From Pectobacterium brasiliense (GTDB lineage: Bacteria; Pseudomonadota; Gammaproteobacteria; Enterobacterales; Enterobacteriaceae), in contig NZ_JACDSF010000021.1 of NCBI RefSeq assembly GCF_013449685.1, positions 1 through 42,681 of the forward strand: a stretch of 42,681 nt of DNA. The letters run 5' to 3'. Below are positions 14,384 through 34,274 of the stretch, in pieces. Below the pieces are notes generated by a model. It did no database searches and was not told the origin of the DNA. It worked only from the letters and a program-made list of their open reading frames with translations. The translations under genes and the position numbers were made by a program. Each line of letters opens with the position of its first letter. The first letter of the stretch is position 1.

Positions 14384-14410
14384 TAGGGTATAACCTGAGG
14401 TTATACCCTA
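14384..14410. promoter_or_regulatory. 27-bp perfect palindrome upstream of the peptide cluster
   Basis: Arms 14384-14396 and 14398-14410 (TAGGGTATAACCT and its complement) pair perfectly around a single G. The core TAACCTGAGGTTA is T-N11-A with dyad symmetry, the general shape of a LysR-family binding box. It lies 79 bases before the epimerase ATG, and a LysR gene closes the cluster. No T-run follows, so a terminator is unlikely. Binding by that regulator is an inference. Confidence 0.6.
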
Positions 14411-14488
14411 CTGATGAACAAGTATTCGTCAGTGATGATGCATCATGAAATAGTCCATTCATCCCCTGAGCGTTGATGAGAGAAAATC

Positions 14489-15457
14489 ATGATGCGGCAT
14501 ATGCAAATTGAAACGGTCAATCTGCCACTAGCCCGTCCTATGGCGGCTGAAAACGGGACGCGTCGTGCAGTTACCGTTATCCGCGTCGCGTTGGAAGAAA
14601 AAGGATTTATTGGACAAGGCGAATGTACGCCAGTCGCCCATTATGGCGAGTCCGCCGACAGCGTATGTCGCCAGCTCTCTGCGGTCCGTGAAGCAATAGA
14701 ACACGGCCTGACCATCGAACAGCTCCAGAAAGATTTATCACCGGGTGCGGCCAGAAATGCGCTGGACTGCGCGCTGTGGCGGCTCAACACCGCCTTGGAA
14801 AAACAGACGCTGTGGCAGCGCGTTGGCATTCATCCCCCCACATCTGTGGTCTGTGCGCAAACGTTGGCGCTCGACAGCGTGGAGAGAATGGCCGCCGCCG
14901 CCTCCAATGCCGTTTCCCACGGCACTCTGCTGCTGAAAATCAAACTGGATCGCGAGCTGATTCTGGAGAAGGTCGCCGCCATTCGTGCCGCCGCGCCCAA
15001 CGCCAGATTGATTATCGATGCGAGAGCGAGCTGGAGCGGGTTGGATTTACATAGCCTGTCTACCGCTCTGCTGCCTTATCAGGTCGCCATGATTGAGCAA
15101 CCGCTTCCCGTCGGTAAGGACGAGGATTTACAGCGGTTTTCTCACCCGATTCCGATCTGCGCGGACGAAAGCTGCCGCCACAGCGGAGACATCGTCGGGC
15201 TGCGCCGTCGTTACGACATGATCAACATCAAGCTGGACAAATGTGGCGGGCTAACCGAAGCGCTGGCGATGGTGCGCGAAGCCCACTTTCACGGCCTGCG
15301 CATTATGGTCGGCTGCACGCTGGGCTCGTCAATGGCGATGGAAGCCGCCCTGCCCGTCGCCGTCGATGCCGAGCACGTCGATCTCGACGGCCCTATCTGG
15401 CTGGCCGCCGACAGTTCGCCTTATCTGACCTACAACCTTGGCCGAATTTGGCTATGA
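14489..15457 (+). CDS. Dipeptide epimerase, L-Ala-D/L-Glu type (YcjG/YkfB-like)
   Basis: This is an enolase-superfamily enzyme of 322 residues. The acid-base and metal residues can be placed: the KIK pair at Lys150 and Lys152, metal ligands Asp177 (LIIDA), Glu203 (MIEQP) and Asp226 (CADES), and the opposite-face base Lys248 (INIKLDK). This pattern matches the E. coli L-Ala-D/L-Glu epimerase, which inverts the second residue of murein-derived dipeptides so that they can be hydrolysed by ordinary peptidases. The start ATG follows GAGAGA. It is the first gene of the peptide cluster, between rph and the ABC transporter. Other dipeptide specificities are known in the family, so the substrate is not certain. 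Confidence 0.88.
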   Translation: MMRHMQIETVNLPLARPMAAENGTRRAVTVIRVALEEKGFIGQGECTPVAHYGESADSVCRQLSAVREAIEHGLTIEQLQKDLSPGAARNALDCALWRLNTALEKQTLWQRVGIHPPTSVVCAQTLALDSVERMAAAASNAVSHGTLLLKIKLDRELILEKVAAIRAAAPNARLIIDARASWSGLDLHSLSTALLPYQVAMIEQPLPVGKDEDLQRFSHPIPICADESCRHSGDIVGLRRRYDMINIKLDKCGGLTEALAMVREAHFHGLRIMVGCTLGSSMAMEAALPVAVDAEHVDLDGPIWLAADSSPYLTYNLGRIWL

Positions 15458-15500
15458 CGCCATTAACCTCAGTAACCCTAAATCATCAACCGGAGTGACC

Positions 15501-17372
15501 ATGACGGATATCATGCACGCGGGTGCCGCCACAGCACCCGGTAACGCCCCCAGGCCTGTACTGGAAATCGACGATCTGAGCGTCAGCTTTAGCGGCCGTT
15601 CCGGCACGCATCAGGCGCTAAAAGGCATTTCCTTTACCGTGAATAAAGGGGAAGTGGTCGCCGTGGTCGGCGAAAGTGGTTCAGGCAAGTCCGTAACCTC
15701 ACTCGCCGTGATGGGGCTGCTGGCGGACTCTGCCAACATCGAACGTGGTGCGCTCCGTTTCACCGCACGCGACGGCAAGCAGCATGACCTGCTGAGCATG
15801 AAAGCGGAAGCGCGTCGTAAGCTGCGCGGCCGCGATCTCGCCATGATTTTTCAGGAGCCGATGACTTCGCTTAATCCGGTACTGAAAGTCGGCGATCAGC
15901 TCACCGAAGCGCTGCTTGACCACAAAATTTGCGATGCCGCGAGTGCGGACAAAAAAGCCCGTGAGCTACTGCACAAAGTGCGCATCGCAGACGTCGATCG
16001 CGTGATGAAAAGCTACCCGCACTCGCTGTCCGGCGGAATGCGCCAGCGTGTGATGATTGCACAGGCGCTGGCCTGCGATCCGCAGTTGTTGATTGCCGAT
16101 GAACCGACCACCGCGCTGGACGTCACCGTGCAGGCTCGCATTCTGCAAATCCTGCGTGACCTGCAACAGCAGAGCGACATGTCTGTACTGTTTATCACTC
16201 ATGATATGGGTGTAGTCGCGGAAATCGCCGACCGCGTGGTGGTGATGTACCGTGGCGAGATTGTAGAGCAAGGCACCGTCGAACAGATTTTTGCCGCACC
16301 GCAACATCCTTATACCCAGTCGCTGCTAGCCGCTGTACCGAAGCTGGGCGACATGCGCGATAGCCTCTGGCCAAAACGCTTTCCTTTACTGGGGCAAGCT
16401 GCCGATCCGGAAAACAGTGAACAGGTTACCGCCCGTTATGACGCCGAGCCGCTGTTGGATATTCGCGGGCTGAGCGTGTATTACCCGATGCGCAGCGGGA
16501 TTTTATCCACCATCACTCACCACGTTCATGCGGTAGAGCAGATTGATTTCAACGTCTGGCCGGGCGAAACGCTGGCTATCGTCGGGGAAAGCGGCTGTGG
16601 CAAATCCACCACCGGACGCGCCCTGCTGCGTCTGGTACAGAGCCAAGCCGAAAGCATTCATTTTCAGGGCAACGAGATTTCCCAGATGAAAGAGCGGGAT
16701 TTCCAGCCGCTGCGCCGGGAAATGCAGATGGTGTTTCAAGACCCGTACGCCTCGCTCAACCCGCGCCTGACGGTCGGCTTTACCATCGCCGAACCGCTGC
16801 TGCTGCACGGGCTGGTGAAATCGCTGGAAGAAGCGACACCGCAGGTGCAGGCGCTGTTAAAAAGTGTCGGCCTGCTGCCAGAGCATGCACGTCGTTATCC
16901 GCACGAGTTTTCCGGCGGACAGCGTCAGCGTATCGCGATTGCCCGCGCGATGGCGCTACAGCCACAGGTCATCATTGCTGACGAAGCCGTTTCGGCGCTC
17001 GATGTGTCGATTCAGGCGCAGGTCGTCAACCTGATGATGGATCTCCAGAAGAAAACCGGCGTGTCGTGGATTTTCATCTCGCACGATATGGCCGTTGTCG
17101 AGCGCATCGCGAACCGCGTCGCGGTGATGTACCTCGGCCAGATTGTGGAGATCGGCCCGCGCCAGTCGGTGTTTAACGATCCACAGCATCCGTATACCCG
17201 CCGCCTGTTGGCTTCGGTACCGATTGCCGATCCAACCCGCCGCGGCGCACGCCAGTTTGACGACAGCGAAATCCCCTCACCCTTGCGTAAAGCAGGCGAG
17301 GCCGTCGCCAAAACGCGCTACCGAGAGGTCGCGCCGCAGCACTGGGTCGCCGACAACGAATCGGCCGCCTGA
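15501..17372 (+). CDS. Fused double ATP-binding subunit of peptide ABC importer (GsiA-like)
   Basis: A 623-residue protein containing two complete ABC ATPase domains, like E. coli GsiA (glutathione importer). Domain 1 has Walker A GESGSGKS, signature LSGGMRQRV and Walker [13 protein letters not shown]. Domain 2 has [18 protein letters not shown] and [12 protein letters not shown]. Each is followed by the oligopeptide-type C-terminal region containing HPYT. The same frame is open back to 15438, but the ATG at 15501 has GGAG 5 bases upstream and is preferred. It energises the permease encoded by the two permease genes downstream. GsiA-like does not mean glutathione-specific here. Confidence 0.9.
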
Positions 17373-17460
17373 AACACGATGCCATGACAATAAAACAGTC
17401 ATAAAAAACAAAGTATTAACAAAACACAACACACGTTCATAGCTGACCAGGAGAGAAACC

Positions 17461-19002
17461 ATGAAGCCATTTGTTCGCCGCTCTGCCGTTGCCCTCGGGC
17501 TCTCACTGTGTCTGGCGGCTGTCGCCCAGGCGCAAGACCTTCGCATTTCCATCTATGCCGATATCACCGGACTCGACCCGCACGATACCTCGGACACGCT
17601 GAGCTACTCCATTCAGAGCGGCATCTTCGAGCGTCTGTTCCAGTTCGATAATAAAATGAAGCTGGTGCCGCGTCTGGCGACGGGCTACACCAGTAACGAC
17701 ACCGCCACCGAGTTCGTCATTACGCTGCGCGAAGGCATCACCTTCCAGGACGGCGCGCCGTTTAACGCCGACGCCGTTAAAGCTAACCTCGACCGTCTGG
17801 CCGATCAGAGCAAAGGCTTAAAGCGCAACAGCCTGTTTAACATGGTGCAAAGCGTCACCGTGCTGTCGCCGACGCAGGTCAAAATCGAGCTGAACAAATC
17901 CTTCGGTGCCTTTGTGAATACGCTGGCGCACCCGTCTGCCGTCATGCACAGCCCGGAAGCGCTGAAGAAATACCCAGACGAAGCACAGCTGCGCGTGCAT
18001 CCCGTCGGTACTGGCCCGTTCAAATTCACCGAATGGCAGCAGGGTAAAGACGTGAAGCTGGTGAAATTCGACAACTACTGGCAGAAAGGCTGGCCAAAAG
18101 TCGACAGCGTGACCTTCTACCCAACGCCGGAAGATTCCACCCGTGTGGCGTCACTGAAATCCGGTCAGGTCGATGCCGTGTATCCGCTGCCTTCCGATCT
18201 GATCGGCACCGTACAAAACGACAGCAAGCTGGCGATTCAGCGCGACCCGAGTATTTATCAATTCTGGCTGGCGATGAACAACCTGCGTCCACCGCTGAAC
18301 GATATCCGCGTGCGTCAGGCGCTGAACTACGCCATCAACCGCGACATCTGGCTGAAAGTTGGCTTTGCAGGCATGGGCGTTCCTGCCTCTTCTGCGATGG
18401 CACCAGACGTGCAGTTCTTCGCACGCCAAACCTCGCCGAACTACACCTATAACCCAGAAAAAGCCAAGGCGCTGCTGAAAGAAGCGGGCTACGCCAACGG
18501 CCTGAGCCTGAAGCTGTGGACGACGAACCGTACCGACTACATCCGTAGCGCGCAGTTCTTCAAACAGCAGTTAGAGCAGGTCGGCATCAAGGTCACCGTT
18601 ACCCCGATGGATTCCGGGATGCGTAACGCCAAGCTGTTTGGTGTTAAAGATCCGAAAGACGCCGAATTTGACCTGTTCTACAACGGCTGGTCTCCGTCTA
18701 CCGGTGATGCTGACTGGGCACTGCGTCCGCTGTTCGCGACAGAGTCCTGGGTGCCGGTTGCGTATAACGTTTCCTACTACAGCAATCCGGTAACGGATAA
18801 AGCGATTACCGCTGGGCTGGCGACGGCCGATAACGACAAACGTGCTGCGGCTTATGCGGATGCACAGCGTCAGATTTGGCAAGATGCACCAGTGGTCTTC
18901 CTGGGCTCGCCGGACAACGTTGTCGGCAAAACCAAGAACCTCGACGGCGTCTACATGCTGGCTGATGGCTCACTGATCTTCGATCAGGCTGAATTTAAGT
19001 AA
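17461..19002 (+). CDS. Periplasmic peptide-binding protein (GsiB-like, SBP family 5)
   Basis: A 513-residue precursor with a clear signal peptide (basic MKPFVRR, hydrophobic core, predicted cleavage after AQA near residue 24). The mature protein is a family 5 solute-binding protein with the conserved ITLREGITFQDGAPFNADAV segment (about residues 86-105). The full-length match is to E. coli GsiB, including the VGTGPFKF and ALNYAINRD segments. It should capture peptides in the periplasm and deliver them to the permease. A good ribosome-binding site (AGGAGAG) precedes the start, and the 88-base gap after the ATPase gene may allow extra expression of this subunit. Confidence 0.9.
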   Translation: MKPFVRRSAVALGLSLCLAAVAQAQDLRISIYADITGLDPHDTSDTLSYSIQSGIFERLFQFDNKMKLVPRLATGYTSNDTATEFVITLREGITFQDGAPFNADAVKANLDRLADQSKGLKRNSLFNMVQSVTVLSPTQVKIELNKSFGAFVNTLAHPSAVMHSPEALKKYPDEAQLRVHPVGTGPFKFTEWQQGKDVKLVKFDNYWQKGWPKVDSVTFYPTPEDSTRVASLKSGQVDAVYPLPSDLIGTVQNDSKLAIQRDPSIYQFWLAMNNLRPPLNDIRVRQALNYAINRDIWLKVGFAGMGVPASSAMAPDVQFFARQTSPNYTYNPEKAKALLKEAGYANGLSLKLWTTNRTDYIRSAQFFKQQLEQVGIKVTVTPMDSGMRNAKLFGVKDPKDAEFDLFYNGWSPSTGDADWALRPLFATESWVPVAYNVSYYSNPVTDKAITAGLATADNDKRAAAYADAQRQIWQDAPVVFLGSPDNVVGKTKNLDGVYMLADGSLIFDQAEFK

Positions 19003-19020
19003 TCGGTCAGGGAGAACGCC

Positions 19021-19941
19021 ATGTTTGCTTATATCGTCCGACGTTTGCTGGAAATGATCCCGGTTCTGCTGGTGGTCTCCCTGTTAGTGTTCGGTTTTAT
19101 AAAACTGCTGCCGGGTGACCCGGCACGTATTTACGCCGGTGCTGACGCGACCATTGAGGCGGTGGAAGCCGCTCGTCAGCAGTTAGGATTGAACGACCCG
19201 CTGCCGCAGCAGTATGTCCACTGGCTCGGCGGCCTGTTCAGCGGCGATCTGGGTGTGACATACCGCACCCAGCAGCCGGTTATCGACGTCATCAGCAAGA
19301 GTTTTATGCCCACCATGTGGCTGGCGCTGGCGGGCTTTGTCTGGTCGGTGCTGCTCGGCCTGCTGATCGGCGTGGTGTCCGCGCTCAAGCGTGGCAAATG
19401 GCAGGACTGGACGCTGATGAGCTTCGCGGTCGGCGGAATTTCCATGCCGCCGTTCTGGCTCGGCCTGTTGCTGATTCAGTTTGTCGCCATGCCGTTCGGC
19501 GTCTTTTCCGTCAGCGGCTTTAATCAACCCAGCGACATCATTCTGCCCGCACTGACGCTCGGGGCATCGGTAGCGGCCGTCATGGCACGCTTTACCCGCT
19601 CCGCGTTTCTGGAAGTCGCGCAGGAAGACTACGTCCGCACCGCTCGCTCCAAGGGGCTGCGCAATCGGCTGGTCACCTGGAAGCACGTGATGCGTAACGC
19701 GCTGATCCCAGTCATCACCATGCTGGGGCTGCAATTCGGCTTCCTGCTCGGTGGCTCCATTGTGGTCGAAAGCGTGTTTAGCTGGCCGGGTCTGGGCTGG
19801 CTGCTGATTGAATCAATCAAGACGCAGGATCAGCCGGTTATTCAGGCGCTGGTGATGCTGTTCGTGTTTGAATTTATTGTCATTAACCTGTTGGTCGACC
19901 TGCTGTACGCGGTGGTCAATCCGGCGATTCGCCTACGTTAG
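19021..19941 (+). CDS. Peptide ABC transporter permease (GsiC-like)
   Basis: A 306-residue inner-membrane protein with about six hydrophobic helices. The N-terminus (YIVRRLLEMIPVLLVVSLLV) and the GDPAR segment match the DppB/GsiC permease type. The cytoplasmic EAA loop, DYVRTARSKGLRNRLVTWKH, contacts the ATPase. Its length is the same as E. coli GsiC. It starts 18 bases after the binding-protein gene and precedes the second permease by 8 bases. Confidence 0.93.
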   Translation: MFAYIVRRLLEMIPVLLVVSLLVFGFIKLLPGDPARIYAGADATIEAVEAARQQLGLNDPLPQQYVHWLGGLFSGDLGVTYRTQQPVIDVISKSFMPTMWLALAGFVWSVLLGLLIGVVSALKRGKWQDWTLMSFAVGGISMPPFWLGLLLIQFVAMPFGVFSVSGFNQPSDIILPALTLGASVAAVMARFTRSAFLEVAQEDYVRTARSKGLRNRLVTWKHVMRNALIPVITMLGLQFGFLLGGSIVVESVFSWPGLGWLLIESIKTQDQPVIQALVMLFVFEFIVINLLVDLLYAVVNPAIRLR

Positions 19942-19949
19942 GAGACACG

Positions 19950-20849
19950 ATGAACCTTCCTCCCGAACCCGTCATGGCCGTTGCCACGCTTGATGAAGAG
20001 ACGATACGTTCGCCGTGGCGCGACTTCGTTCAGGTCTTTATCCGTAACCCGATGGCGCTGGTCTCCAGCGGCTTCGTCCTGCTATTGGTACTGGTCGCCA
20101 TTTTCGCGCCCTGGCTGGCACCGTGGAACCCAATGGAGCCCGACTGGATGGCGCTGGCTTCACCGCCTTCAGCGGCGCACTGGATGGGCACCGACGATCT
20201 CGGGCGCGATGTGATGAGCCGTATCATCTACGGCGCACGCATCTCGCTATATATCGGCATTTTCTCCGTTACTCTCGGCATGTTGGTCGGCATCGTGCTC
20301 GGCCTGCTGGCAGGCTACTACGGCCGCTGGGTCGATACGCTGATCATGCGCGGTTCCGACGTGCTGTTCGCCTTTCCTGGCATGCTGCTGGCAATTGCGG
20401 TCGTCGCGATCCTCGGCCCCGGCCTGAATAACGTGATTATCGCCGTCGCGGTCTTCAGCGTACCGGTCTTCGCCCGCATCGTGCGTGCCTCTACGCTGTC
20501 GCTGAAACAGGCGGCCTATGTGGAAGCGGTACGCTGTGCCGGTGCGCCGGATCGCATCGTGCTGATGCGCCACATCCTGCCCGGCACGCTGCCTAACGTG
20601 ATCGTCTATTTCACCATGCGTATCGGTACCAGCATCCTGACCGCGGCAGGCCTGAGCTTCATCGGCCTTGGCCCAGAGCCGGACGTACCGGAATGGGGCA
20701 ATATTCTGGCAATGAGCCGTAGCCTGATGATGGCAGGTGCCTGGCACGTTAGCGTGTTCCCAGGTCTGGCGATCTTCTTCACCGTGCTGGCGTTTAACCT
20801 GCTTGGGGATGCGCTGCGTGATACGCTCGATCCCAAACTAAAAAGCTGA
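19950..20849 (+). CDS. Peptide ABC transporter permease (GsiD-like)
   Basis: A 299-residue inner-membrane protein of the DppC/GsiD type. The N-terminal cytoplasmic segment leads into the first helix (ALVSSGFVLLLVLVAIFAPW), followed by the conserved HWMGTDDLGRDVMSRIIYGA region. The EAA loop is EAVRCAGAPDRIVLMRHILP. With the other permease subunit it forms the heterodimeric channel of the importer. The next gene begins 8 bases after its stop. Confidence 0.93.
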   Translation: MNLPPEPVMAVATLDEETIRSPWRDFVQVFIRNPMALVSSGFVLLLVLVAIFAPWLAPWNPMEPDWMALASPPSAAHWMGTDDLGRDVMSRIIYGARISLYIGIFSVTLGMLVGIVLGLLAGYYGRWVDTLIMRGSDVLFAFPGMLLAIAVVAILGPGLNNVIIAVAVFSVPVFARIVRASTLSLKQAAYVEAVRCAGAPDRIVLMRHILPGTLPNVIVYFTMRIGTSILTAAGLSFIGLGPEPDVPEWGNILAMSRSLMMAGAWHVSVFPGLAIFFTVLAFNLLGDALRDTLDPKLKS

Positions 20850-20857
20850 GGAAGGCG

Positions 20858-21958
20858 ATGCGCGGCGATCACCCGATGAACGATTATCACCAACAGCAGC
20901 AGGCGCTGTTGCTACAACGCTGGAAAACGATGCGGCAGTTGGGTACGCCGCGCTCGGCTAGCGGACCGCATAACAGCATTAGCGATGTGGCAGGCGTGCG
21001 CGTCGGCCACTGCACATTGGCGGCAGGCGAAGTGCAAACCGGCGTCACGGCGATTGTGCCGCCCAGCGAGAACCTGTTCACCCAGCCTCTGCCCTGCGGC
21101 GCGGCGGTGCTGAACGGCTTCGCTAAACCCGTCGGACTGGTACAGATCAAGGAGTTGGGGCTGCTGCAAACGCCCATCCTGCTCAGCAATACGCTGGCAA
21201 CTGGCACGTTGTTTACTACGCTGGTACGCGACGCCATTGCCCGCAATCCTGAACTGGGTCGCACGTTGCCGACGGTGAACCCGCTGGCGCTGGAGTGCAA
21301 CGACGGCTGGCTGAACGACATTCAGGCGCTGGCGGTGACGGAACACATGGCGCGACAGGCGCTGGACAGTGCCGCAGACAGTTTCGCACGCGGCAGCGTC
21401 GGCGCTGGACGCGGGATGAGCTGCTTTAGCCTGAAAGGCGGCATCGGCACCGCATCGCGCCTGATTCCTGAATTGAATGCCACGCTCGGCGTGTTGGTGC
21501 TGGCAAACTTCGGCACGCTTTCCTCACTGACGCTGGACGGCGTGCAGATGGGCGACGCTATCGCGCCTATCCTGCCCGAGCTCGCACCGCAGCAGGACGC
21601 CGGATCGATCATCATTATCATGGCGACGGATGCCCCGCTTGATGCCCGCCAGCTCAAGCGTATCGCCAAGCGTGCCGGTGCAGGATTAGGCCGGCTCGGC
21701 AGCTATTGGGGACACGGTTCCGGCGATATCGCCGTCGCATTCTCCACCTGCCCGCAGCCGCAACCGCCGGAGGATGCGCAGCTTGAATCGCTGTTAAGCG
21801 CCGCCGCCGACGCCACCGAACACGCTGTACTCGACGCCATGCTTCAGGCAGACGCCGTGACTGGTTTTCGCGGCCATCATCGTCCGACGCTGCCACAGGC
21901 GTTGGACAGGCTGGCTGCGACTCTTTATCCATACGCAAATTCTCCCGTAGGAAACTGA
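20858..21958 (+). CDS. P1 family (DmpA-type) self-processing aminopeptidase
   Basis: A 366-residue member of the S58/DmpA N-terminal nucleophile family. DmpA from Ochrobactrum is an aminopeptidase acting on L- and D-amino-acid amides and peptides; relatives cleave beta-peptides. Precursors self-cleave before a Ser that becomes the nucleophile. Here the AGSIIIIMATDAPL motif places the scissile Gly249-Ser250 bond, and upstream conserved segments include SISDVAGVRVGHCT (about residues 40-53) and GIGTASRL. There is no signal peptide, so it acts in the cytoplasm on imported peptides. AGGAAGG lies before the ATG at 20858. The stop shares an A with the next start (ATGA), implying translational coupling. 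Confidence 0.88.
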   Translation: MRGDHPMNDYHQQQQALLLQRWKTMRQLGTPRSASGPHNSISDVAGVRVGHCTLAAGEVQTGVTAIVPPSENLFTQPLPCGAAVLNGFAKPVGLVQIKELGLLQTPILLSNTLATGTLFTTLVRDAIARNPELGRTLPTVNPLALECNDGWLNDIQALAVTEHMARQALDSAADSFARGSVGAGRGMSCFSLKGGIGTASRLIPELNATLGVLVLANFGTLSSLTLDGVQMGDAIAPILPELAPQQDAGSIIIIMATDAPLDARQLKRIAKRAGAGLGRLGSYWGHGSGDIAVAFSTCPQPQPPEDAQLESLLSAAADATEHAVLDAMLQADAVTGFRGHHRPTLPQALDRLAATLYPYANSPVGN

Positions 21959-22782
21959 TGATGAAAGTGTTTATCTCTGCTGATATCGAAGGGATCGCAG
22001 GCGTGATGCGCCCGGAACAGTGCAGCCCTGGCACCGCGGAATATCAACTGGCACGCGGCCTGATGGAGCAGGAAGTGAACGCCGCGATTGACGGTGCGTT
22101 CGCGGGTGGCGCAACAGAGGTGGTGGTCGCCGACAGCCATGCGGCAATGGTCAATCTGCGCGCGGAGAACATCGACGCCCGCGCCCGACTGGTACAGGGC
22201 AAACCGCGCGGCTATTCGATGGTAGAAGGGCTGGAGCAACAGCAGTTCGACGGCCTGATGTTCATCGGCTACCACAGCGCGGCGGGCGAGTTTGGCGTGC
22301 TGTCGCATACCATCAACGGTCGTGCGTTCTACCGCGTGCGCATCAACGGTGAAATCATGGGCGAGAGCGACATCTACGCTGCCGCCGGCGTAGAACAGAA
22401 GACACCACTCTGGTTGGTCAGCGGTGACGACACGCTCCAGCGCTGGATCGCCCGCTACTACCCCGCCACCGACTACACCTGCGTCAAGCGCGCGATTTCG
22501 CAGCACGCAGCCGAATCCCTCAGCACTGAACAGGCGCGTCAGGTGATTCGTGACGCGGCAAAAGCGGCGGTGGAAAAAGCGCACCGGACGCTGAATTCGC
22601 GGATTCAGGCACCCTACCGCCTTGAACTGATGGTGGCAAAACCGATACTGGCCGATCTATTCTGTCTGCTGCCGAATGTGGAACGTTTGGATGCCATAAC
22701 CGTAGGTTATACGGCGCAAAGCATGCGGGAAATCACCAGCCTGCTAGGTGCCTTCTCCTATCTGGCGACAACGCAAAACTGA
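21958..22782 (+). CDS. M55 family D-aminopeptidase (DppA-like)
   Basis: A 274-residue zinc peptidase of the DppA family, whose Bacillus subtilis founder removes N-terminal D-amino acids such as D-Ala from short peptides. The SADIEG motif near the N-terminus supplies Asp and Glu zinc ligands (the SxDxEG signature). DSHAAM, GYHSAAG and MGESDIY supply the further His and Glu positions expected in the family. There is no signal peptide. A second ATG follows immediately at 21961. The overlap with the DmpA-type gene suggests a matched pair of peptidases acting on what the importer brings in. Confidence 0.9.
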   Translation: MMKVFISADIEGIAGVMRPEQCSPGTAEYQLARGLMEQEVNAAIDGAFAGGATEVVVADSHAAMVNLRAENIDARARLVQGKPRGYSMVEGLEQQQFDGLMFIGYHSAAGEFGVLSHTINGRAFYRVRINGEIMGESDIYAAAGVEQKTPLWLVSGDDTLQRWIARYYPATDYTCVKRAISQHAAESLSTEQARQVIRDAAKAAVEKAHRTLNSRIQAPYRLELMVAKPILADLFCLLPNVERLDAITVGYTAQSMREITSLLGAFSYLATTQN

Positions 22783-22794
22783 TTCCAGTTTATC

Positions 22795-22813
22795 CGCCCC
22801 TTATTCCGGGGCG
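22795..22813 (+). other. Small GC hairpin in the gap before iaaA
   Basis: CGCCCC and GGGGCG pair across a 7-base loop between the M55 peptidase stop and the iaaA start. There is no T-run, so it is more likely an RNA-stability or partial-attenuation element than a terminator. Confidence 0.4.
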
Positions 22814-22841
22814 TAAACCGATTGAAAAGAGAATTTATCGC

Positions 22842-23789
22842 ATGACAAAGCCCGTGATTGTGATCCACGGTGGCGCAGGTGCGCTGACCCGCTCAGCTAT
22901 GAGTGCTGAAAAAGAGCAACGCTACCTGGCCGCATTGTCCGAGATTGTCGCCAGCGGACAGCGCATTCTGGCTGAAAACGGCAGCGCGCTGGATGCCGTA
23001 ACGGAAGCCGTTCGCCTGTTGGAAGAGTGTCCGTTATTCAATGCCGGACATGGTTCGGTTTTCACCCACGCGGAAACCCACGAACTGGATGCCAGCATTA
23101 TGGACGGACGCTCGCTGGATGCCGGTGCGGTGAGCTGCGTCAGCCATATCCGTAACCCGATTCTGGCCGCGCGTACCGTACTCGAAGCCAGTCAACATGT
23201 GATGTTTACTGCCGACGGCGCAGAGGCATTTGCACAGCAGCACGGTCTGGAGATGGTTGATCCGGCGTTTTTCTCCACCGACGAACGCCGCCAGCAGTTG
23301 CATAACGCGCAGGCAGGTTCAGGCCGCGTCATCCTCGATCATGATGGCCAGAACGACCCTATCGATCCTGACCGTAAATTCGGCACCGTCGGCGCGGTCG
23401 CACTGGACAGCGCGGGCAACCTCGCGGCAGCAACCTCGACGGGCGGCATGACCAACAAACAGGCCGGACGCGTAGGTGACAGCCCCATCATCGGCGCAGG
23501 CTGCTACGCCAATAACCAGACGGTCGCCGTTTCCTGCACCGGTACGGGTGAAGTCTTTATGCGTGCCGTCGCCGCTTATGATGTTTCGGCGCTGATGGAA
23601 TACGCCGGACTCACGCTACAGCAGGCCAGCGATCGCGTCGTGATGGAGAAACTGGTGCGGATGGACGGCAGCGGTGGGCTAATTGCCGTCGACAAAGCGG
23701 GCAACATTGCCCTGCCGTTTAATAGCGAAGGCATGTACCGCGGCTATGGCTATGTGGGAGAAGCCCCCGTCGCCGATATTTATCGCTAA
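22842..23789 (+). CDS. iaaA: Isoaspartyl peptidase/L-asparaginase (IaaA-like)
   Basis: A 315-residue N-terminal-nucleophile hydrolase. It self-cleaves in RKFGTVGAV, exposing Thr182 as the nucleophile, and carries the downstream STGGMTNKQAGRVGDSPIIG and CTGTGEVF motifs of the plant-type asparaginase family. E. coli IaaA hydrolyses beta-aspartyl dipeptides and is encoded with the gsiABCD glutathione importer, so the pairing with a Gsi-like importer is conserved. Here it would clear isoaspartyl or related side-chain-linked peptides. It starts 59 bases after the M55 gene, with a small GC-rich hairpin (22795-22813) between them. Confidence 0.92.
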   Translation: MTKPVIVIHGGAGALTRSAMSAEKEQRYLAALSEIVASGQRILAENGSALDAVTEAVRLLEECPLFNAGHGSVFTHAETHELDASIMDGRSLDAGAVSCVSHIRNPILAARTVLEASQHVMFTADGAEAFAQQHGLEMVDPAFFSTDERRQQLHNAQAGSGRVILDHDGQNDPIDPDRKFGTVGAVALDSAGNLAAATSTGGMTNKQAGRVGDSPIIGAGCYANNQTVAVSCTGTGEVFMRAVAAYDVSALMEYAGLTLQQASDRVVMEKLVRMDGSGGLIAVDKAGNIALPFNSEGMYRGYGYVGEAPVADIYR

Positions 23790-23839
23790 ATCTGTCGCCC
23801 TACCTATTCAGGCCGAATTGCACCATTTTCGACCATGAC

Positions 23840-23874
23840 GCCCAATTATGGAACATTGCGCACCATAATTGGGC
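23840..23874. promoter_or_regulatory. Inverted repeat upstream of the LysR gene
   Basis: GCCCAATTATGG (23840-23851) and CCATAATTGGGC (23863-23874) are perfect complements across an 11-base spacer. The site lies 127 bases before the regulator start, in the 212-base gap after iaaA. LysR proteins commonly bind interrupted dyads near their own genes. No T-run follows, so a terminator role is less likely. Confidence 0.55.
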
Positions 23875-24001
23875 AAGGCTATTATTAAGAAACGCCGCTG
23901 GGCGGGCAGGAACGAAATTAGAAACTGGCGTAATAATTGCAGGCATTTTGATTATTACTCATACGATGCTCACCAGAAAGCGTCAGCCGGAGCCTGCACT
24001 C

Positions 24002-24910
24002 ATGCGACTACGCCATATTGAAATTTTCCAGGCCATTGTTCAGGCAGGTACCATCAGCGGCGCTGCCCGCTTACTCAACGTCTCACAGCCGAACGTCAGC
24101 CGGGTATTGAATCACGCAGAGCAGCAGCTCGGTTTTTCCCTGTTTGAACGTCGCACACAGGGAATGATCGCCACCGAAGAAGGGCTGCGCCTGATACCGA
24201 AAGTGCAGGAACTTTTCAGCCATCTGCAAAGCATCAGTTCACTCACCGAACAAATCAAAACCAGCAAGGCCCACTCCGTAAGGCTGGGTGCAGCACATGC
24301 GTTCGGACAAATGATCGTGGCGCCAACGCTGGTGGAATTTCATAAGCAGGCCGCCTCGGTTAACGTCGAACTGGTTACCGAACACTTCAGCACGCTGTGC
24401 CAGAACATCCTGCAAAACCAGCTCGATTTCGCGCTGATCTTTGGCCAGCAGGTGCCGTCCGAGCTGCTGGCAGAACCGCTGTTCCAGTCCACAATGGTTG
24501 CCCTATTGCCGAAAGACAGCCCGATAAACGGCCCTGTCTCGCTGGAATGGCTGTGCAACAACAATCTGCTGATGATGCAGCATAAGGATCCGCTCGGTCA
24601 GGTGCTACACCGTGCGCTGCGCGACAAAGCGCTACAGCCAGCGGCGTCGCTCTACATCAAAACCTACTCGGTGATTGCCGACATGGTGCTGGCGGGCGGC
24701 GGAACGGGCATCGTCGATCTCTTTACCGCCTGTCGCTATGCTGACCGGCTCAAGATCGTCCCTATCGATCAGCCGCTGCCTTTTGAAGTCACGCTGATCA
24801 GCCGCCGTGACAACCCACAGTCACAGGCGACACTGCAGTTAAAACAGATGATGAAAAATCGCTGTCGCGACATTGCCAGACAGAACGAAGCCTTACTTTA
24901 CGCCGCCTGA
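24002..24910 (+). CDS. LysR family transcriptional regulator
   Basis: A 302-residue regulator with an N-terminal winged helix-turn-helix (FQAIVQAGTISGAARLLNVS, then QPNVSRVLNHAEQQLGFSLF) and a C-terminal periplasmic-binding-protein-like effector domain. ATG at 24002 is preferred over ATG at 23948 because GGAG lies 9 bases upstream and the protein then starts right at the usual MRLRHIEIF. It is in the same orientation as the peptide cluster but separated by 212 bases with its own dyad. It is the obvious candidate regulator of the cluster, which is an inference from position. Confidence 0.88.
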   Translation: MRLRHIEIFQAIVQAGTISGAARLLNVSQPNVSRVLNHAEQQLGFSLFERRTQGMIATEEGLRLIPKVQELFSHLQSISSLTEQIKTSKAHSVRLGAAHAFGQMIVAPTLVEFHKQAASVNVELVTEHFSTLCQNILQNQLDFALIFGQQVPSELLAEPLFQSTMVALLPKDSPINGPVSLEWLCNNNLLMMQHKDPLGQVLHRALRDKALQPAASLYIKTYSVIADMVLAGGGTGIVDLFTACRYADRLKIVPIDQPLPFEVTLISRRDNPQSQATLQLKQMMKNRCRDIARQNEALLYAA

Positions 24911-26052: not shown

Positions 26053-26456
26053 GGTCACGTATTCAATATGTAGATCAGGTCATTGCAGATAATGTTCACG
26101 CTCGATGAATGTGCCGATTATCGAGTTTTTTAAGGTGCGTACAACGGCATTAATACTGATATGCAGCGCCCGTGCGGTATCGCGAATACCGGCATTGTTC
26201 ATGGCAAGGTCAACAATTTTCTCTTTCATACCCTGCTGACAGGCACGATATTCATACTCAAGCTGAAAACTTCGACAACAGGTCTGACAGCGGAAGCGCT
26301 GATGACCGATGCTTCCCAGTCCATGTTTTTTAACCGGATCTGTTTGCTCACAAAATGGGCATTTTACCTCAACCGTTGCCATCAGGCTCTTCTTCTAAAT
26401 ATTTCGGAAAACAGATGAACGTTCTACCTGACGATCACCGAGTTGAATACGTGACC
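26053..26456 (-). mobile_element. IS1-family deletion derivative
   Basis: A roughly 404-bp element with perfect 14-base terminal inverted repeats: GGTCACGTATTCAA at 26053-26066 and its complement at 26443-26456. It contains an insA-like gene but almost no insB, so it is an internally deleted copy dependent on a related transposase elsewhere. No 8-9 base target duplication is visible at its ends. Its right end replaces the natural 3' end of the hipA gene. Confidence 0.75.
26080..26382 (-). pseudogene. IS1-family InsA joined to a remnant of InsB
   Basis: The 100-residue frame is an InsA protein. It has the zinc-ribbon Cys pairs CPFCEQ and CQTCCRS and a helix-turn-helix region (ARALHISINAVVRTLKN). 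The A6C slip site used by IS1 for the -1 frameshift that makes the InsAB' transposase is present near 26130 (minus strand TTAAAAAACTC). Only about ten residues (ending EREHYLQ, like the InsB C-terminus) follow, so the catalytic DDE part is gone. By analogy with IS1, InsA alone acts as a repressor and terminal-repeat binder. Confidence 0.75.
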
Positions 26457-27790
26457 GCATTTTCCTGTTTGCGCTGATCCAATGTCTTAGCAATCGCAGA
26501 CACTGTTGTTTTACTGATCCCTTGTTGCTTGGCAAGATAAGTAAATTGACTGATGGCTTCTGCGACTTCTTCAATGACTTGCCTTGCATCATTCCAATTC
26601 GCAAAGCCAGCACTGGTAGCAAATTTTTGCATCACCTTAAGCGGTGGCGCTTTGCCATAACCTCCGAACGCAGTGGCGTGTTCGTTGAATGGATGTGGGC
26701 TGTAGGTAACATCGTAAAAAGGTGCAGGATTCCATTGACCGTCATCCGCTTGCAAAAACGCCCAATTTTTACTGTGGTCGTCTTGATTAGACGACAGCAA
26801 GTTAAAAATGGCGCGGCGAAATTGCAGTTGTCCAGCCGCTGGAGATTTACACAACTGACGGCTGGCTTTAACCAAGTCAATATAATCCAAACTTGGCGTT
26901 CGAAAGTCTGCATCCAGCAGCCCGCAAGCGCTGTGCATATGCAATCGACCTGAACTGAGTTGACTGCCTGAGTCGGCCTGTTCAGTGACATAATCAAAAC
27001 GCTTAAGCGCTAACCAGGCAGATGCAGCGCTTGAAGATGGTGCTTCAATAAGTTGCCAGACTGGTGGTTGACACTTAGCTTGCTCAGCCATTTGCAAATA
27101 AACCGCCTCACACAAACCTTCTTCATGGCCGAGCGGGAGATTTTTTGAGGTAAATTTAATCAGCCAAGCCTCATCTTTAGGCTGAGCAAAGGTTCGACAA
27201 TGCCGAGCTTCTCCAGCAGGCATATAAATCTGCGCTTTAGGCCTTGCCCCACCCGAACTACCTCCGGCGACTAATGCGGCCAACACCTGTTGCGTATGCC
27301 CATCTAACTCATCGTGATTATCATCCATATAATCTGACATCGAAGAATCGAACAGCGTTTGCGCTTCTAAGCCTAAAGTAGCTAAATCAATGTCCGCGTT
27401 CGTCGTGGCTGAAAACTCAGACACCGGAGAAAAAGACAATGCTCCCATGCCTTTATCACCGACAAAGGCCAGTCTATCCATCGCCGTTAATTGATTAGGC
27501 AGGATGCCCTTTTGCCGGAAAATACGATCTTGCAACAGCATGCCCCAGCCATCGGGCAAACAATCTCCAAATACGCCATGTACACCTTGGTGCGGCGCTT
27601 TAGGAGCGGCTTGAACTTGCGCATTCGCTTGTAAGGTAAACGGTGATAAATTGCCAAACTGCTGCAAATAGTCGTCAGCATACTGAAAAAAAACGCCTTG
27701 CCGATTCTGTGCCAAGACTCCAACAGATATTTGTTCACCTGAGCTTAGCGTACGAGTAACGGATAGTTTTTGAATGGGTTTAAAACTCAT
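26435..27790 (-). CDS. hipA: HipA-type serine/threonine kinase toxin, C-terminus altered by an insertion
   Basis: HipA toxins are kinases; E. coli HipA phosphorylates glutamyl-tRNA synthetase and causes persistence. In this 451-residue protein the Gly-rich ATP loop GGSSGGARPK lies at residues 176-185, the catalytic NQDDHSKN at 335-342 (Asp337 in the DxHxxN pattern) and the metal-binding DVT at 360-362. The last six residues (VTYSTR) are encoded by the terminal repeat of the IS1-family element, so the original C-terminus has been replaced, but the kinase core is complete. The start overlaps the end of the hipB gene by 11 bases. Its target cannot be predicted. Confidence 0.87.
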   Translation of the reverse strand: MSFKPIQKLSVTRTLSSGEQISVGVLAQNRQGVFFQYADDYLQQFGNLSPFTLQANAQVQAAPKAPHQGVHGVFGDCLPDGWGMLLQDRIFRQKGILPNQLTAMDRLAFVGDKGMGALSFSPVSEFSATTNADIDLATLGLEAQTLFDSSMSDYMDDNHDELDGHTQQVLAALVAGGSSGGARPKAQIYMPAGEARHCRTFAQPKDEAWLIKFTSKNLPLGHEEGLCEAVYLQMAEQAKCQPPVWQLIEAPSSSAASAWLALKRFDYVTEQADSGSQLSSGRLHMHSACGLLDADFRTPSLDYIDLVKASRQLCKSPAAGQLQFRRAIFNLLSSNQDDHSKNWAFLQADDGQWNPAPFYDVTYSPHPFNEHATAFGGYGKAPPLKVMQKFATSAGFANWNDARQVIEEVAEAISQFTYLAKQQGISKTTVSAIAKTLDQRKQENAVTYSTR

Positions 27791-28070
27791 CTTTTAGCAC
27801 CTCATCAATACTAGAAGGCATAGTGGCGCGCTCTTTGTGAGGTTGCGTGAGCTGATAAAGTCTATCCAACGAGTCTAGGGTCTGCCAGAGCAACAGCAAT
27901 TGGCGAAATGAAATTTGCCCAGTTAGCTCAAATTTCTTAATGGTGGCCGCAGGTACACAGCTTCGCTCAGCAAGCGACGCTCGTGACAGCTTTGCTCGTT
28001 GACGTAACTCTCGTAAATAAGCCGCATAGGCTTGGCTTACATCGGTATCATCAAGTAAGGTAAAATTCAT
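27780..28070 (-). CDS. hipB: HipB-type helix-turn-helix antitoxin
   Basis: A 96-residue Xre-family DNA-binding protein upstream of hipA. The helix-turn-helix is ASLAERSCVPAATIKKFELT (about residues 32-51). It should neutralise HipA and repress the operon. The start at 28070 (MNFTLLDDTD) is chosen because the upstream palindrome and -10 element lie at 28083-28107; a frame opening at 28103 overlaps them. A second, frameshifted copy of this gene lies at 34384-34676. Confidence 0.85.
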   Translation of the reverse strand: MNFTLLDDTDVSQAYAAYLRELRQRAKLSRASLAERSCVPAATIKKFELTGQISFRQLLLLWQTLDSLDRLYQLTQPHKERATMPSSIDEVLKDEF

Positions 28071-28082
28071 CCGCAAAGACCA

Positions 28083-28107
28083 AATGGATACAGTTATATC
28101 CATTATA
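28083..28107 (-). promoter_or_regulatory. hipBA promoter -10 and operator
   Basis: AATGGATA (28083-28090) and TATCCATT (28097-28104) form an 8-bp dyad with a 6-base centre. On the minus strand a perfect TATAAT (28107-28102) overlaps the dyad, 32-37 bases before the hipB start. This layout fits autorepression by HipB. The E. coli HipB operator is TATCC-N8-GGATA, so this one has the half-sites in the opposite order. Confidence 0.6.
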
Positions 28108-28560
28108 GCCAGATAAAACCAAAAGTAGATACTATAATGTCCAATTGTGGGTAAGGTGCTGAAAAATCACTCGATAAATCCTTTCTAAACTGCTATGTTT
28201 TAACCCTAACAGCAGCGTAAAGCGGCACTGTTTTTCTATTGCTAACCACTAAGATTTAGTAAAAGCCAGAGGCAAGTGGTGGGCAAACAGGCATTTTTGA
28301 ACGGTTTCTTTTCGATAAACCATTGAGTTTATTAAGGTCTACACCGCTACTCTACGAGCAGATCCAATTGAGTAACTTTCATCAGCGGTCACGCATGGAC
28401 ACCAAACCATTATAAATCAATAAATTATTAAAAATTGATGCTCATAACATCCATGGCAAACCCACTAAGTTTGGGTAGTTATGGGTAATAGATTGGGGAG
28501 TATTTTCTCGCTATAGTTTATTTAGCGAGAAAATACTCCCCAATTTTTTGAGGTTGAGAA
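28108..28560. other. Non-coding stretch between hipB and the integrase remnant
   Basis: About 450 AT-rich bases with no convincing gene on either strand. The only strong structure is the 22-bp palindrome at 28492-28544. The rest looks like decayed island sequence between modules. Confidence 0.5.
28492..28549 (+). terminator. Perfect 22-bp hairpin followed by six T
   Basis: Positions 28492-28513 and 28523-28544 are exact complements with a 9-base loop, followed by TTTTTT. On the plus strand this is an unusually long intrinsic terminator. It ends only 11 bases before the small integrase-tail frame, so it may instead be a DNA element tied to the island. Confidence 0.7.
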
Positions 28561-28785
28561 ATGGGTAAGATGAATATTCCTGACAATATAGCCCAACGAT
28601 GCCTTAACCAAATTCCAGGTAACCGAACTGATGGTATCTATAACAAAGATGCTTATTTTGAGGAGCGCAAAGCGGCTCACAACATGCTTGGTGAGTGGCT
28701 GGCTCCAATTGTTAATGGCGATGAGGCAAATAAGATTGTCAATCTTGACATGGTTTTAAATTACAATTTTCACGGCAATAATTGA
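28561..28785 (+). pseudogene. C-terminal fragment of a tyrosine recombinase (integrase)
   Basis: A 74-residue frame with the end-of-integrase pattern: QRCLNQIPGNRTDGIYNKDA (normally the ERCLNH-IYxRxDY segment after the catalytic His/Arg box) followed by ERKAAHNMLGEWLAPIVNG, the final helix. The catalytic domain and its Arg, His and Tyr residues are missing upstream; only non-coding DNA lies there. It marks a lost integrative element next to yicC. Confidence 0.65.
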
Positions 28786-28896
28786 CGTGAAATGACAAAA
28801 TTACAAACCAAAAACCCAAATAAGTTTGAAAAGTCTGAAAATCACGTCAATAATAAACGTGTATTTTATTTTTTATAAACCAGAATGGGATCAGTC

Positions 28897-29670
28897 ATGC
28901 TGAACACTGAAGCCAGACAGCAACTACAGAAACTGCTGCCGTTGGATATGATCGCCACCAAATCATGGCTGGAGACGCAAGGACTCAACCTGCATTTTCT
29001 AGACAATGCAGTACGGAGCCAAACGCTGATCCCTGTCGCAGCCGGTGTTTACACTAGGCAAGAAGCGAGGCTATCCTGGAAAGGAATCGTTGCCTCGTTG
29101 CAACGCATGGCCGATGTCCCTGTCCATGTTGGAGGTCTGACAGCGTTAGAGCTAGAAGGACTTGGCCATTACCTGTCCAAAGGAAACAAACCCAAGGTTC
29201 ACCTCTATTCTGCTGAGATGCTGCCTAGATGGCTGGCTAGAATCGATGCGCCAGCACAATTTAAGTGGTATGGCACTCGTCGCCTATGGCCAGAGACGCT
29301 AATGCAAGACAACCAGTACCTGAGGCAAGATAGCTGGCACGCATCATTGCCTTCATTACATTATTCCTGTCCAGAGAAAGCCATTTTGGAGCTTTTAGCT
29401 ATAGTGCCCAATACCATCAGCTTTGAACATGCTGACCAACTTATGCAAGGATTACACAACCTATCGCCTCGTAAGCTGAATACCTTGCTGAAAGCATGTA
29501 GCAGTATCAAAGCAAAGCGCCTCTTTCTCTGGCTGGCAGGAAGACATCAACACGCCTGGCTTAAGCACCTCACACCAGAACAGTATGCCCTGGGCACTGG
29601 TAAACGACTGATCGCTAAAGGCGGCAAACTAGAGCCAGCCTGGCAAATAACAGTGCCTAAGGATATGTGA
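28897..29670 (+). CDS. abiEi: AbiEi-type antitoxin/transcriptional repressor
   Basis: AbiE is a type IV toxin-antitoxin and abortive-infection system. AbiEi binds its promoter and counteracts the toxin without touching it. This 257-residue protein has an N-terminal winged-helix part (about residues 1-70, including TKSWLETQGL and PVAAGVYTR) and the conserved VGGLTALELEGLGHYL and PEKAILELL segments. The ATG at 28897 follows GGA and is preferred; one at 28885 would add four residues and lacks a ribosome-binding site. The toxin gene starts 4 bases after the stop. Confidence 0.85.
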   Translation: MLNTEARQQLQKLLPLDMIATKSWLETQGLNLHFLDNAVRSQTLIPVAAGVYTRQEARLSWKGIVASLQRMADVPVHVGGLTALELEGLGHYLSKGNKPKVHLYSAEMLPRWLARIDAPAQFKWYGTRRLWPETLMQDNQYLRQDSWHASLPSLHYSCPEKAILELLAIVPNTISFEHADQLMQGLHNLSPRKLNTLLKACSSIKAKRLFLWLAGRHQHAWLKHLTPEQYALGTGKRLIAKGGKLEPAWQITVPKDM

Positions 29671-29674
29671 AAAC

Positions 29675-30589
29675 ATGAATAGACAAAGCCACTACTACCG
29701 ACAAGTGCAGCTACTACTCAGGATTATTCCTTTTGTTGCGCAGCACAACTGTTTCGCTCTCAAAGGTGGAACAGCTATCAATTTGTTTGTTCGTGACTTT
29801 CCTCGACTTTCGGTTGATATCGACTTAGTTTTTCTGCCCATGATGGAACGGAATGAAGCTCTGCAGACCATCAAGAGCAACCTAGAAACCCTGGCCTCCA
29901 CGATCACTACTAATATCGACAATACTCGTGTTGTTCGCGCCTTCCAGGATAAATCAGATGCTCTGCGTTTATTGGTGGAGCGAGATAACGTTCAAATCAA
30001 AATTGAACTCTCCCCCGTACTACGCGGCACGGTTTACGACCCCAAAGTCATGCAGGTAAGTGAAGCAGTTGAAGATGAGTTTGGCTTTGCCGAAATGGCT
30101 GTGGTGAGTTTTGCCGATTTGTACGCGGGAAAAATCTGTGCAGCACTGGATCGTCAACACCCGAGAGATCTTTTCGACGTCAAGCAACTACTTGATAACG
30201 AGGGACTCACCGATGAACTTCGTAAAGCCTTATTGGTTTATATTATTAGTCACCCACGCCCTATTGCCGAACTACTTAGACCAAACTTCAAGGACATTTC
30301 AGGTGTTTATGAAGGGGAGTTTCGGAATATGGCCGATCAAGACATTCCCCAAGCGGAACTCGAAGCAACTCGCGAACATCTGGTGAGGCTAATAAACTCG
30401 TCTTTGACGCCTCAAGAGCGATCATTTTTACTGTCTTTCAAAAATCGCGCCCCCGACTGGTCTCTTCTGGAGCTTTCCGGTATCGACCAATTACCGGCTG
30501 TTCGTTGGAAACTGCAAAACCTAGCCAAAATGAACCCAGAAAAACATTCCGAAGCTTACCATCGGCTTCAACAAATATTGACGATATAA
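29675..30589 (+). CDS. abiEii: AbiEii-type nucleotidyltransferase toxin
   Basis: A 304-residue member of the nucleotidyltransferase toxin family. The signature KGGTAINLF (residues 30-38) followed by SVDIDLVF (46-53) provides the Gly-rich loop and metal-binding Asp48 and Asp50. The ADLYAGKICAALDRQHPRDL segment (around residues 145-170) is the second conserved block. Relatives add nucleotides to tRNA 3' ends and stop growth during phage infection. AAGGA lies before the ATG. The operon ends at the hairpin at 30591-30616. Confidence 0.88.
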   Translation: MNRQSHYYRQVQLLLRIIPFVAQHNCFALKGGTAINLFVRDFPRLSVDIDLVFLPMMERNEALQTIKSNLETLASTITTNIDNTRVVRAFQDKSDALRLLVERDNVQIKIELSPVLRGTVYDPKVMQVSEAVEDEFGFAEMAVVSFADLYAGKICAALDRQHPRDLFDVKQLLDNEGLTDELRKALLVYIISHPRPIAELLRPNFKDISGVYEGEFRNMADQDIPQAELEATREHLVRLINSSLTPQERSFLLSFKNRAPDWSLLELSGIDQLPAVRWKLQNLAKMNPEKHSEAYHRLQQILTI

Positions 30590-30590
30590 A

Positions 30591-30616
30591 AGCCCCGCCC
30601 TAAACGGGACAGGGCT
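30591..30616. terminator. Hairpin between abiEii and the AlpA-type gene
   Basis: AGCCC and GGGCT, with an inner CCC/GGG pair, form a stem just after the abiEii stop (30589). The alpA-type gene reads towards it, so it could act on both transcripts. The T-run is short. Confidence 0.5.
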
Positions 30617-30626
30617 CTAACTTTAC

Positions 30627-30824
30627 TCAAGCGACTTTTCTCTGCTCAACCCACCACAGCAGATCTGAAAGCCGCCAAGCCACACAATGGGCGCTCAGCC
30701 TGACTCGTTTGGGGACTAAGCCTTGCCGTTCCATCATCCACCACTGAGTACGACTGACGCCAGTGATCATCTTACAATCAGGCTCTCTGCCCAGTCGCTC
30801 GTACTGACCTAATTGACTGAGCAC
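30627..30824 (-). CDS. AlpA-type helix-turn-helix regulator
   Basis: A 65-residue protein with the excisionase-like winged helix-turn-helix of AlpA regulators: ITGVSRTQWWMMERQGLVPK (about residues 20-39) followed by the short strand and WRLSDLLWWVEQR. AlpA-type proteins control integrase or other genes of P4-like elements and genomic islands. Its presence beside an integrase fragment supports a former integrative element. It is probably complete. Confidence 0.8.
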   Translation of the reverse strand: MLSQLGQYERLGREPDCKMITGVSRTQWWMMERQGLVPKRVRLSAHCVAWRLSDLLWWVEQRKVA

Positions 30825-34262: not shown

Positions 34263-34274
34263 TATGGGTTTCTC

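Follow-up and report, generated by a model that had tools for sequence, protein, structure and literature searches.

A peptide-uptake gene cluster of Pectobacterium brasiliense, apparently trimmed from a dgcN-dgcA-linked operon

Nine open reading frames (ORFs) occupy the interval between rph and yicC at 14489-24910 of a 42,681-nt stretch of DNA from the soft-rot bacterium Pectobacterium brasiliense (contig NZ_JACDSF010000021.1, assembly GCF_013449685.1), the whole of which is called the window below. The cluster encodes an epimerase/racemase, a four-subunit Gsi-like importer, a P1 peptidase, an M55 D-aminopeptidase, an IaaA-type isoaspartyl peptidase and a LysR-type regulator. On balance, we favour the view that it is a LysR-controlled operon for the uptake and cutting of D-peptides, trimmed from a dgcN-dgcA-importer-P1-M55 ancestor, in which the racemase would have been kept with a changed pocket. 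As a preliminary description of this DNA had stated, all nine ORFs are open, lie on the plus strand and follow one another, as far as iaaA with short gaps or an overlap, and rph and yicC are neighbours in the one E. coli chromosome inspected. That description had also regarded the cluster as an unrelated, new assembly along the lines of Bacillus subtilis dpp-ykf; the loci of relatives point instead to descent from a dgcN-dgcA-linked operon.

Orthologous loci and the loss of dgcN

The M55 protein of the window served as query in a single scan of the named genome collection, which yielded 77 loci. The genes for M55, P1 and GsiB-like proteins occur together in 62 of them, far above chance; the other 15, several of which lie on cut contigs, lack a match to the P1, GsiB-like or M55 protein and were kept outside this comparable set. 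The usual gene order is dgcN-dgcA-ATPase-binding protein-permease-permease-P1-M55-LysR. In the parts of the literature consulted (PMC10845958, PMC11747546, PMC12363236) and in NCBIfam model names, DgcN is described as a D-Glu N-acetyltransferase and DgcA as an N-acetyl-D-Glu racemase. Among the 62 comparable Enterobacterales-type loci, dgcN is present in 44 and absent from 18, the latter comprising 10 loci of Pectobacterium, four of Brenneria, one of Samsonia and three from Symbiopectobacterium-type genomes, one of which is filed as Serratia marcescens. Brenneria has a fifth locus (L047), which falls outside the 62 for want of a GsiB-like match and is likewise without dgcN.

The comparison of the rph-yicC region between Pectobacterium and Dickeya, which had been proposed earlier, revealed a shared core and a shared iaaA on the same side of rph. 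However, the locus of Dickeya undicola is larger: it also carries dgcN, and its iaaA is followed by a PF00144 hydrolase gene and a second SBP_bac_5 importer on the opposite strand, then by genes for an M19 dipeptidase and a LysR regulator. The M19 gene was found in at least 28 of the 77 loci, a minimum because the sequence flanking the loci is cut short. None of the 10 Pectobacterium loci has it; in these, iaaA is followed directly by LysR and yicC. Because relatives carry the additional dgcN, PF00144, M19 and second-importer genes, the window cluster would represent a trimmed form with iaaA as in other rph-linked loci; by descent, it appears to be a trimmed Enterobacterales D-glutamate/D-peptide operon. 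The iaaA gene occurs in 26 of the 77 loci, every one of them rph-linked, and is an addition to the core with a putative role in the pathway. The proposal that the cluster imports and hydrolyses peptides with D-residues gains likelihood by association, through dgcN-dgcA and in part the PF00144, M19 and second-importer genes of orthologous loci. As a separate observation, the reverse loss was also seen: Acerihabitans (L052) and one other locus (L101) keep dgcN, with no racemase match at the locus.

A perfect 27-bp palindrome, TAGGGTATAACCTGAGGTTATACCCTA, with 13-nt arms (100% identity) and a T-N11-A core, lies upstream of the racemase gene at 14384..14410. It has one match within the window and none in 100 shuffles, and it is a single site in the 4.67-Mb genome at up to three mismatches, the reversed control giving none. 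A related site, with 0-6 mismatches to the window palindrome over 22 scored positions, precedes dgcN or the racemase gene in 66 of the 77 loci, which are all the loci having either gene. The site stands 74-110 bp before dgcN (218 bp in four Lonsdalea) and 76-82 bp before the racemase gene in Pectobacterium, Samsonia and Symbiopectobacterium, or 206-243 bp in Brenneria. The T-N11-A form suits a LysR site, and the palindrome is the probable operator of the cluster's own LysR regulator. It is followed on the plus strand by a leader (14411..14494) that precedes dgcN in relatives and here runs straight into the ATG ATG of the racemase gene.

DgcN is absent from all 25 genus genomes and from Samsonia, in a search in which 11 of 12 other genomes gave a match. 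Traces of the gene persist in Brenneria: in B. izbisi and B. salicis, 23-25 bp after the leader are 95.7-96% identical to the start of Dickeya dgcN (E at most 5e-6), and weaker remnants comprise 21 bp in B. roseae (90%, E 0.02) and 20 bp in Brenneria hezel4-2-4 (90%, E 0.08; 55% over the first 20 codons when translated, E 0.004). No such match was obtained for Brenneria 4F2 in the leader comparison, and the remainder of dgcN was not found at the leaders of the five Brenneria compared. In Pectobacterium and Samsonia the leader continues into ATG ATG CGG CAT. The Pectobacterium protein starts with MMRHMQ, and those of Dickeya and Lonsdalea with MRQMQ; the extra first codon would explain this difference, and the first ATG (14489) may have been the start codon of dgcN, spared when that gene was deleted.

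A second dgcN-dgcA pair seems to have met the same fate. Two Dickeya, Prodigiosinella and Lonsdalea each have two DgcN copies, and four Brenneria and three Symbiopectobacterium-type genomes have only the second copy, which is 51-54% identical and broken in one of them. In a wider family sample, DgcN was matched in 45 of 295 genomes, a few by fragments. In one Brenneria (L177) the second copy belongs to a dgcN2-dgcA2-transaminase trio, also present in Ruegeria. The window genome has dgcA2 and a D-amino-acid transaminase gene without dgcN2 (locus L181, 3132-5015), as do two further genus genomes (neighbourhood read in 3 of 25), and a full-length dgcA2 is present in 24 of the 25 genus genomes, the copy in the remaining one (G020) being fragmented. 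Both dgcN copies thus appear to have been lost in parallel, a dgcA remaining each time. The 45%-identical paralogue in the genus was also considered as YcjG; this assignment was rejected in favour of DgcA2 on the basis of the DgcA score of the window-genome copy (502.9 bits), the neighbouring genes for a D-amino-acid transaminase and for an aminotransferase that we take to be AlaC-like, and the trio in Brenneria.

According to the sequence of events that we propose, the Gsi-like importer would bring in short peptides, from which the P1 and M55 peptidases would free amino acids in the cytoplasm where D-residues are present, and IaaA would strip isoaspartyl residues or ones like them. Ancestrally, DgcN would have N-acetylated the freed D-Glu and DgcA racemised the product, with deacetylation as the last step. 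A deletion from the start codon of dgcN to that of dgcA would then have joined dgcA to the old operator and leader. In the enzyme that descends from DgcA, the fold, the metal ligands and both catalytic lysines would be unchanged and the pocket residues altered; selection would maintain this enzyme, most probably for the epimerisation of a different substrate.

The altered racemase

The first gene (14489-15457, plus strand) encodes an MR/MLE-family protein of the enolase superfamily, derived from dgcA. Tree, synteny and operator-like site agree on its common descent with dgcN-linked dgcA, and the protein shares 71% identity with Dickeya DgcA and 98% with the P. carotovorum racemase. It scores 386.6 bits against the DgcA model NF042940, just under the cut-off of 400, and two dgcN-linked orthologues reach 437.5 and 436.5 bits. 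In common with the dgcN-dgcA pathway of D-glutamate catabolism, the cluster has a DgcA orthologue in the ancestral position, with the same operator-like site and leader; unlike in that pathway, DgcN is missing from the locus and from the 25 genus genomes, and the protein falls under the DgcA cut-off with conserved positions altered.

To describe these alterations, 121 racemase-type sequences were compared, 78 of them serving as references that include repeats of one locus and six DgcA2 rows. Among the 68 positions invariant in the 78 references, the racemase differs at 6-8 in each of the 25 genus genomes and at seven in the window protein, four replacements being fixed in all 25. The changed residues of the window protein are M18, A20, N22, R179, A180, R230 and T277, and K150, K152, D177, E203, D226, K248, D298 and D300 are retained. 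The two lysines K152 and K248, the metal ligands D177, E203 and D226, an assignment that we presume, and the DxD residues D298 and D300 are unchanged throughout the 25 genomes. The replaced positions include R24, N181, E182, H232, F20 and I22 in the index of 1jpd, the only YcjG sequence in the comparison, all of which are conserved in 1jpd and in the 78 references (these are sequence-record indices, the entry's own numbering being probably three lower). N22 in the N-terminal loop and R179 at the DxN asparagine are found in all 25 genomes, so the arginine and asparagine of the epimerases are absent. The N-terminal-loop arginine is presumably the Glu-pocket arginine of L-Ala-D/L-Glu epimerase. 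In the structure model of the racemase, for which 16 sequences were available, residues 302-322 have a predicted local distance difference test (pLDDT) score below 50.

The gene is under purifying selection in the genus, with a ratio of nonsynonymous to synonymous substitution rates (dN/dS) of 0.06-0.07, and none of the 25 full-length genus copies contains a stop. The possibility that it is a plain pseudogene was rejected on these grounds. An epimerase of changed specificity is the most likely state of the first enzyme, and a relic is less likely. In the portions seen of PMC5808125, a two-lysine mechanism of dipeptide epimerases is described and L-Ala-D/L-Phe, Tyr and His are cited as substrates of a Thermotoga enzyme; nothing on active-site residues appeared in the part seen of PMC3605383. 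Several solved dipeptide epimerases of other specificities were among the structure matches. It is conceivable, as a tentative extension, that the Pectobacterium ancestor lost both dgcN copies, dgcA being left as first gene in each case, and that this DgcA was then re-specialised: with substrate-pocket residues replaced around an unchanged metal site and catalytic lysines, it would epimerise peptides with a new specificity and feed P1, M55 and IaaA.

Several observations weigh against a trimmed operon with a re-specialised racemase. Operator matches with 5-6 mismatches count by position only, since near-equal matches exist elsewhere, and the promoter scan found no sigma-70-type site, shuffled sequence yielding 3.9. 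The reference rows are not independent, as some represent the same locus twice. When each row was left out in turn, dgcN-linked rows differed at 0-2 invariant columns, and 1jpd differed at five and 4gfi at nine otherwise invariant columns; these two are only 41-46% identical, however, as against 71% for the window protein and Dickeya DgcA. The P1 gene has a dN/dS of 0.072, above that of the racemase gene, for which no significant acceleration was detected in the window genome (unique changes 37/26 and 34/22; p 0.21 and 0.14), and gsiB is faster there than the racemase gene (39/12, p 0.0002, one outgroup). The Brenneria loci have likewise lost dgcN, yet their racemases show only part of the changes (1-6 of 68 positions), and a second dgcN persists in four of these genomes. 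Acceleration of the racemase gene was seen in P. polonicum with one of two outgroups (p 0.025). The dN/dS and rate values of Brenneria 4F2 are distorted, as gsiA and gsiB have no usable copy there and gsiC and gsiD are broken.

The racemase might alternatively be a slowly decaying relic that since the loss of dgcN has had no metabolic role and persists only as the first cistron, the importer and peptidases carrying the function. R24 (1jpd index) is replaced differently by lineage, by N in Pectobacterium, C or S in three Brenneria and Q in Symbiopectobacterium, and N181 by R, Q or T; one Symbiopectobacterium copy (L058) contains a stop, the gene is faster in Symbio151 (58/22, p 7e-5; 53/23, p 8e-4), and in Brenneria no gene but gsiC, whose value is distorted by the broken copy, has a dN/dS above its 0.120. 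Within Pectobacterium, however, the low dN/dS, the intact copies, the conserved metal and lysine positions and the four fixed replacements, each holding across the 25 genomes, argue the other way, and we regard such a relic as rather unlikely.

Still less probable is the reading in which the operon serves to scavenge murein peptides and its L-Ala-D/L-Glu epimerase is functional, by analogy with B. subtilis dpp-ykf, where a peptide importer, an M55 enzyme and an enolase-superfamily epimerase (PMC5808125) occur together. The first enzyme scores 349.7 bits with the epimerase model NF011708, over the cut-off of 343, it keeps the DxD and both lysines, and a D-aminopeptidase is linked to the importer. 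But dgcN-linked DgcA proteins also pass (365.3 and 376.5 bits), so that this cut-off does not discriminate, and the six 1jpd-indexed residues are replaced. In addition, the nine genes include no counterpart of YkfC, the gamma-D-Glu-diaminopimelate peptidase type, or of YkfD, and the window epimerase comes from the DgcA branch; the likeness of the combined importer, M55 enzyme and epimerase is one of idea only. The function of L-Ala-D/L-Glu epimerase, implied in the preliminary description, is therefore doubtful for an enzyme that derives from dgcN-linked DgcA, has lost its DgcN partner and is altered at residues conserved in both DgcA and the YcjG sequence 1jpd.

Importer, peptidases and surroundings

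Behind the racemase gene, and all on the plus strand, lie genes for a two-domain, GsiA-like ATPase (15501-17372; 831.9 bits, cut-off 1077), a GsiB-like substrate-binding protein of the SBP_bac_5 family (17461-19002; 489 bits, cut-off 594), a GsiC-like permease (19021-19941; 395.5 bits, cut-off 463) and a GsiD-like permease (19950-20849; 404.4 bits, cut-off 484). All four subunits are under the NCBIfam Gsi cut-offs, and a true GsiB is encoded elsewhere in the same genome (1038 bits). The importer can be called Gsi-like by its best NCBIfam matches, and by curated scores it is predicted not to be the GsiABCD glutathione importer. E. coli does pair iaaA with gsi, as the preliminary description had stated: iaaA-gsiABCD forms a separate gene run in the one chromosome inspected. 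The window resembles it in having IaaA beside a Gsi-like importer and differs in that iaaA comes after the importer and peptidases and that the true GsiB is separate.

The P1/S58 (DmpA-type) peptidase gene (20858-21958, with an alternative ATG at 20876) matches PF03576 (349.1 bits) and no NCBIfam model; its product aligns with 2drh and 1b65, and GSII, which we take to contain the Gly-Ser self-cleavage site, is retained in the alignments. The M55 gene (21958-22782; PF04951, 316.6 bits) is the sole M55 match of the genome. Its product aligns with B. subtilis DppA (1hi9, E 1.7e-29) in the segments SADIEG, DSH, GYH, SHT and GES, to which we ascribe metal-binding and catalytic roles, and at 160.8 bits it lies under the cut-off of 430 for the B. 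subtilis-type DppA equivalog; its closest named relatives are from Pectobacterium (97-98%). The IaaA-type isoaspartyl peptidase/asparaginase (22842-23789) reaches 486.1 bits with the NF007589 equivalog, whose cut-off is 567, and is the sole match in the genome. Its T182 aligns with the first residue of the 1jn9 and 2zal beta chains and is the predicted new N-terminus. A preference for D-residues would follow from the M55 and P1 family membership and from the operon's company in relatives.

P1 and M55 genes were also found paired, without an orthologous importer, dgcN or racemase within the stretch read, in Serratia (L087, L089, L092-L094) and Vibrio xiamenensis (L100), the L087 stretch ending close to the pair. 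This pairing suggests that the two peptidases form a core pair.

The cluster might also serve to import ordinary L-peptides, or compounds resembling glutathione, in general, its peptidases doing housekeeping work and its D-amino-acid link being only historical. This reading would fit the GsiABCD best matches, the E. coli iaaA-gsi pairing, the loss of dgcN and the ability of P1 enzymes to act on L-peptides, but it is very improbable given that M55 is a D-aminopeptidase family, that the importer, P1 and M55 genes are constrained (dN/dS 0.009-0.072 in the genus) and that the true GsiB lies elsewhere.

The LysR-type regulator gene (24002-24910), present in 65 of the 77 loci with 60-99% tblastn identity, was started at 24002 and not at the TTG at 23948; the protein from 24002 agrees with orthologues. 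From the racemase gene onwards the intergenic gaps are 43, 88, 18, 8 and 8 bp, followed by the 1-base overlap of P1 and M55, 59 bp, and 212 bp before LysR. Plus-strand terminator-like matches numbered six, every one inside a gene. Between iaaA and LysR (23840-23874), the 12-nt arms of a perfect inverted repeat enclose an 11-nt loop, with no T-run after the repeat. The identities of rph, pyrE and yicC were confirmed with NCBIfam. Meanwhile, the region 3' of yicC (26080-40354) contains an IS1-type InsA piece and, as pairs, HipA/HTH and AbiEi/AbiEii, together with a DinD-family protein; a DUF2357-PDDEXK/AAA/cytosine methylase set there resembles a defence island.

Novelty and biological meaning

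The ancestral gene set is partly known by name, as NCBI annotation already gives dgcN and dgcA in homologous loci of Klebsiella pneumoniae pKPN_CZ, E. coli AH04 and a Pantoea ananatis plasmid. From dgcA to M55, and again in LysR, the operons of pKPN_CZ and P. ananatis have homologues of the window genes in the same order; unlike them, the window lacks dgcN, has iaaA and lies between rph and yicC. The pKPN_CZ copy of the full dgcN-dgcA-importer-P1-M55-LysR operon sits on a plasmid typed as conjugative IncF, with insertion sequence (IS) elements nearby, and E. coli AH04 has the same full operon in its chromosome, several protein accessions being identical to those of pKPN_CZ. This plasmid and Erwiniaceae operon is represented by annotated records, and no functional study of it was found among the literature matches listed. 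The earlier view that the combination is undescribed holds in part: the core is partly named, and the trimming, the dgcN fossil and the altered racemase were not found described among the literature matches listed, which covered titles and abstract openings, with subscription papers mostly outside their scope. Two DUF1611 mentions in Dickeya papers were incidental in the text seen, and the part seen of PMC6131576 had nothing on this pathway in Pectobacterium. The trimmed variant with an altered racemase thus appears to be new.

The operon would join D-glutamate catabolism, so far treated in marine bacteria in the literature as partly seen, to the uptake of peptides in Enterobacterales associated with plants and animals, and it is carried also on Klebsiella plasmids. 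The automatic "L-Ala-D/L-Glu epimerase" labels of such proteins can mislead. The Pectobacteriaceae may be read as a series of stepwise pathway reduction, with dgcN intact in Dickeya, a fossil in Brenneria and gone in Pectobacterium, and would offer a testable case of an enzyme that outlives its partner gene as its pocket changes.

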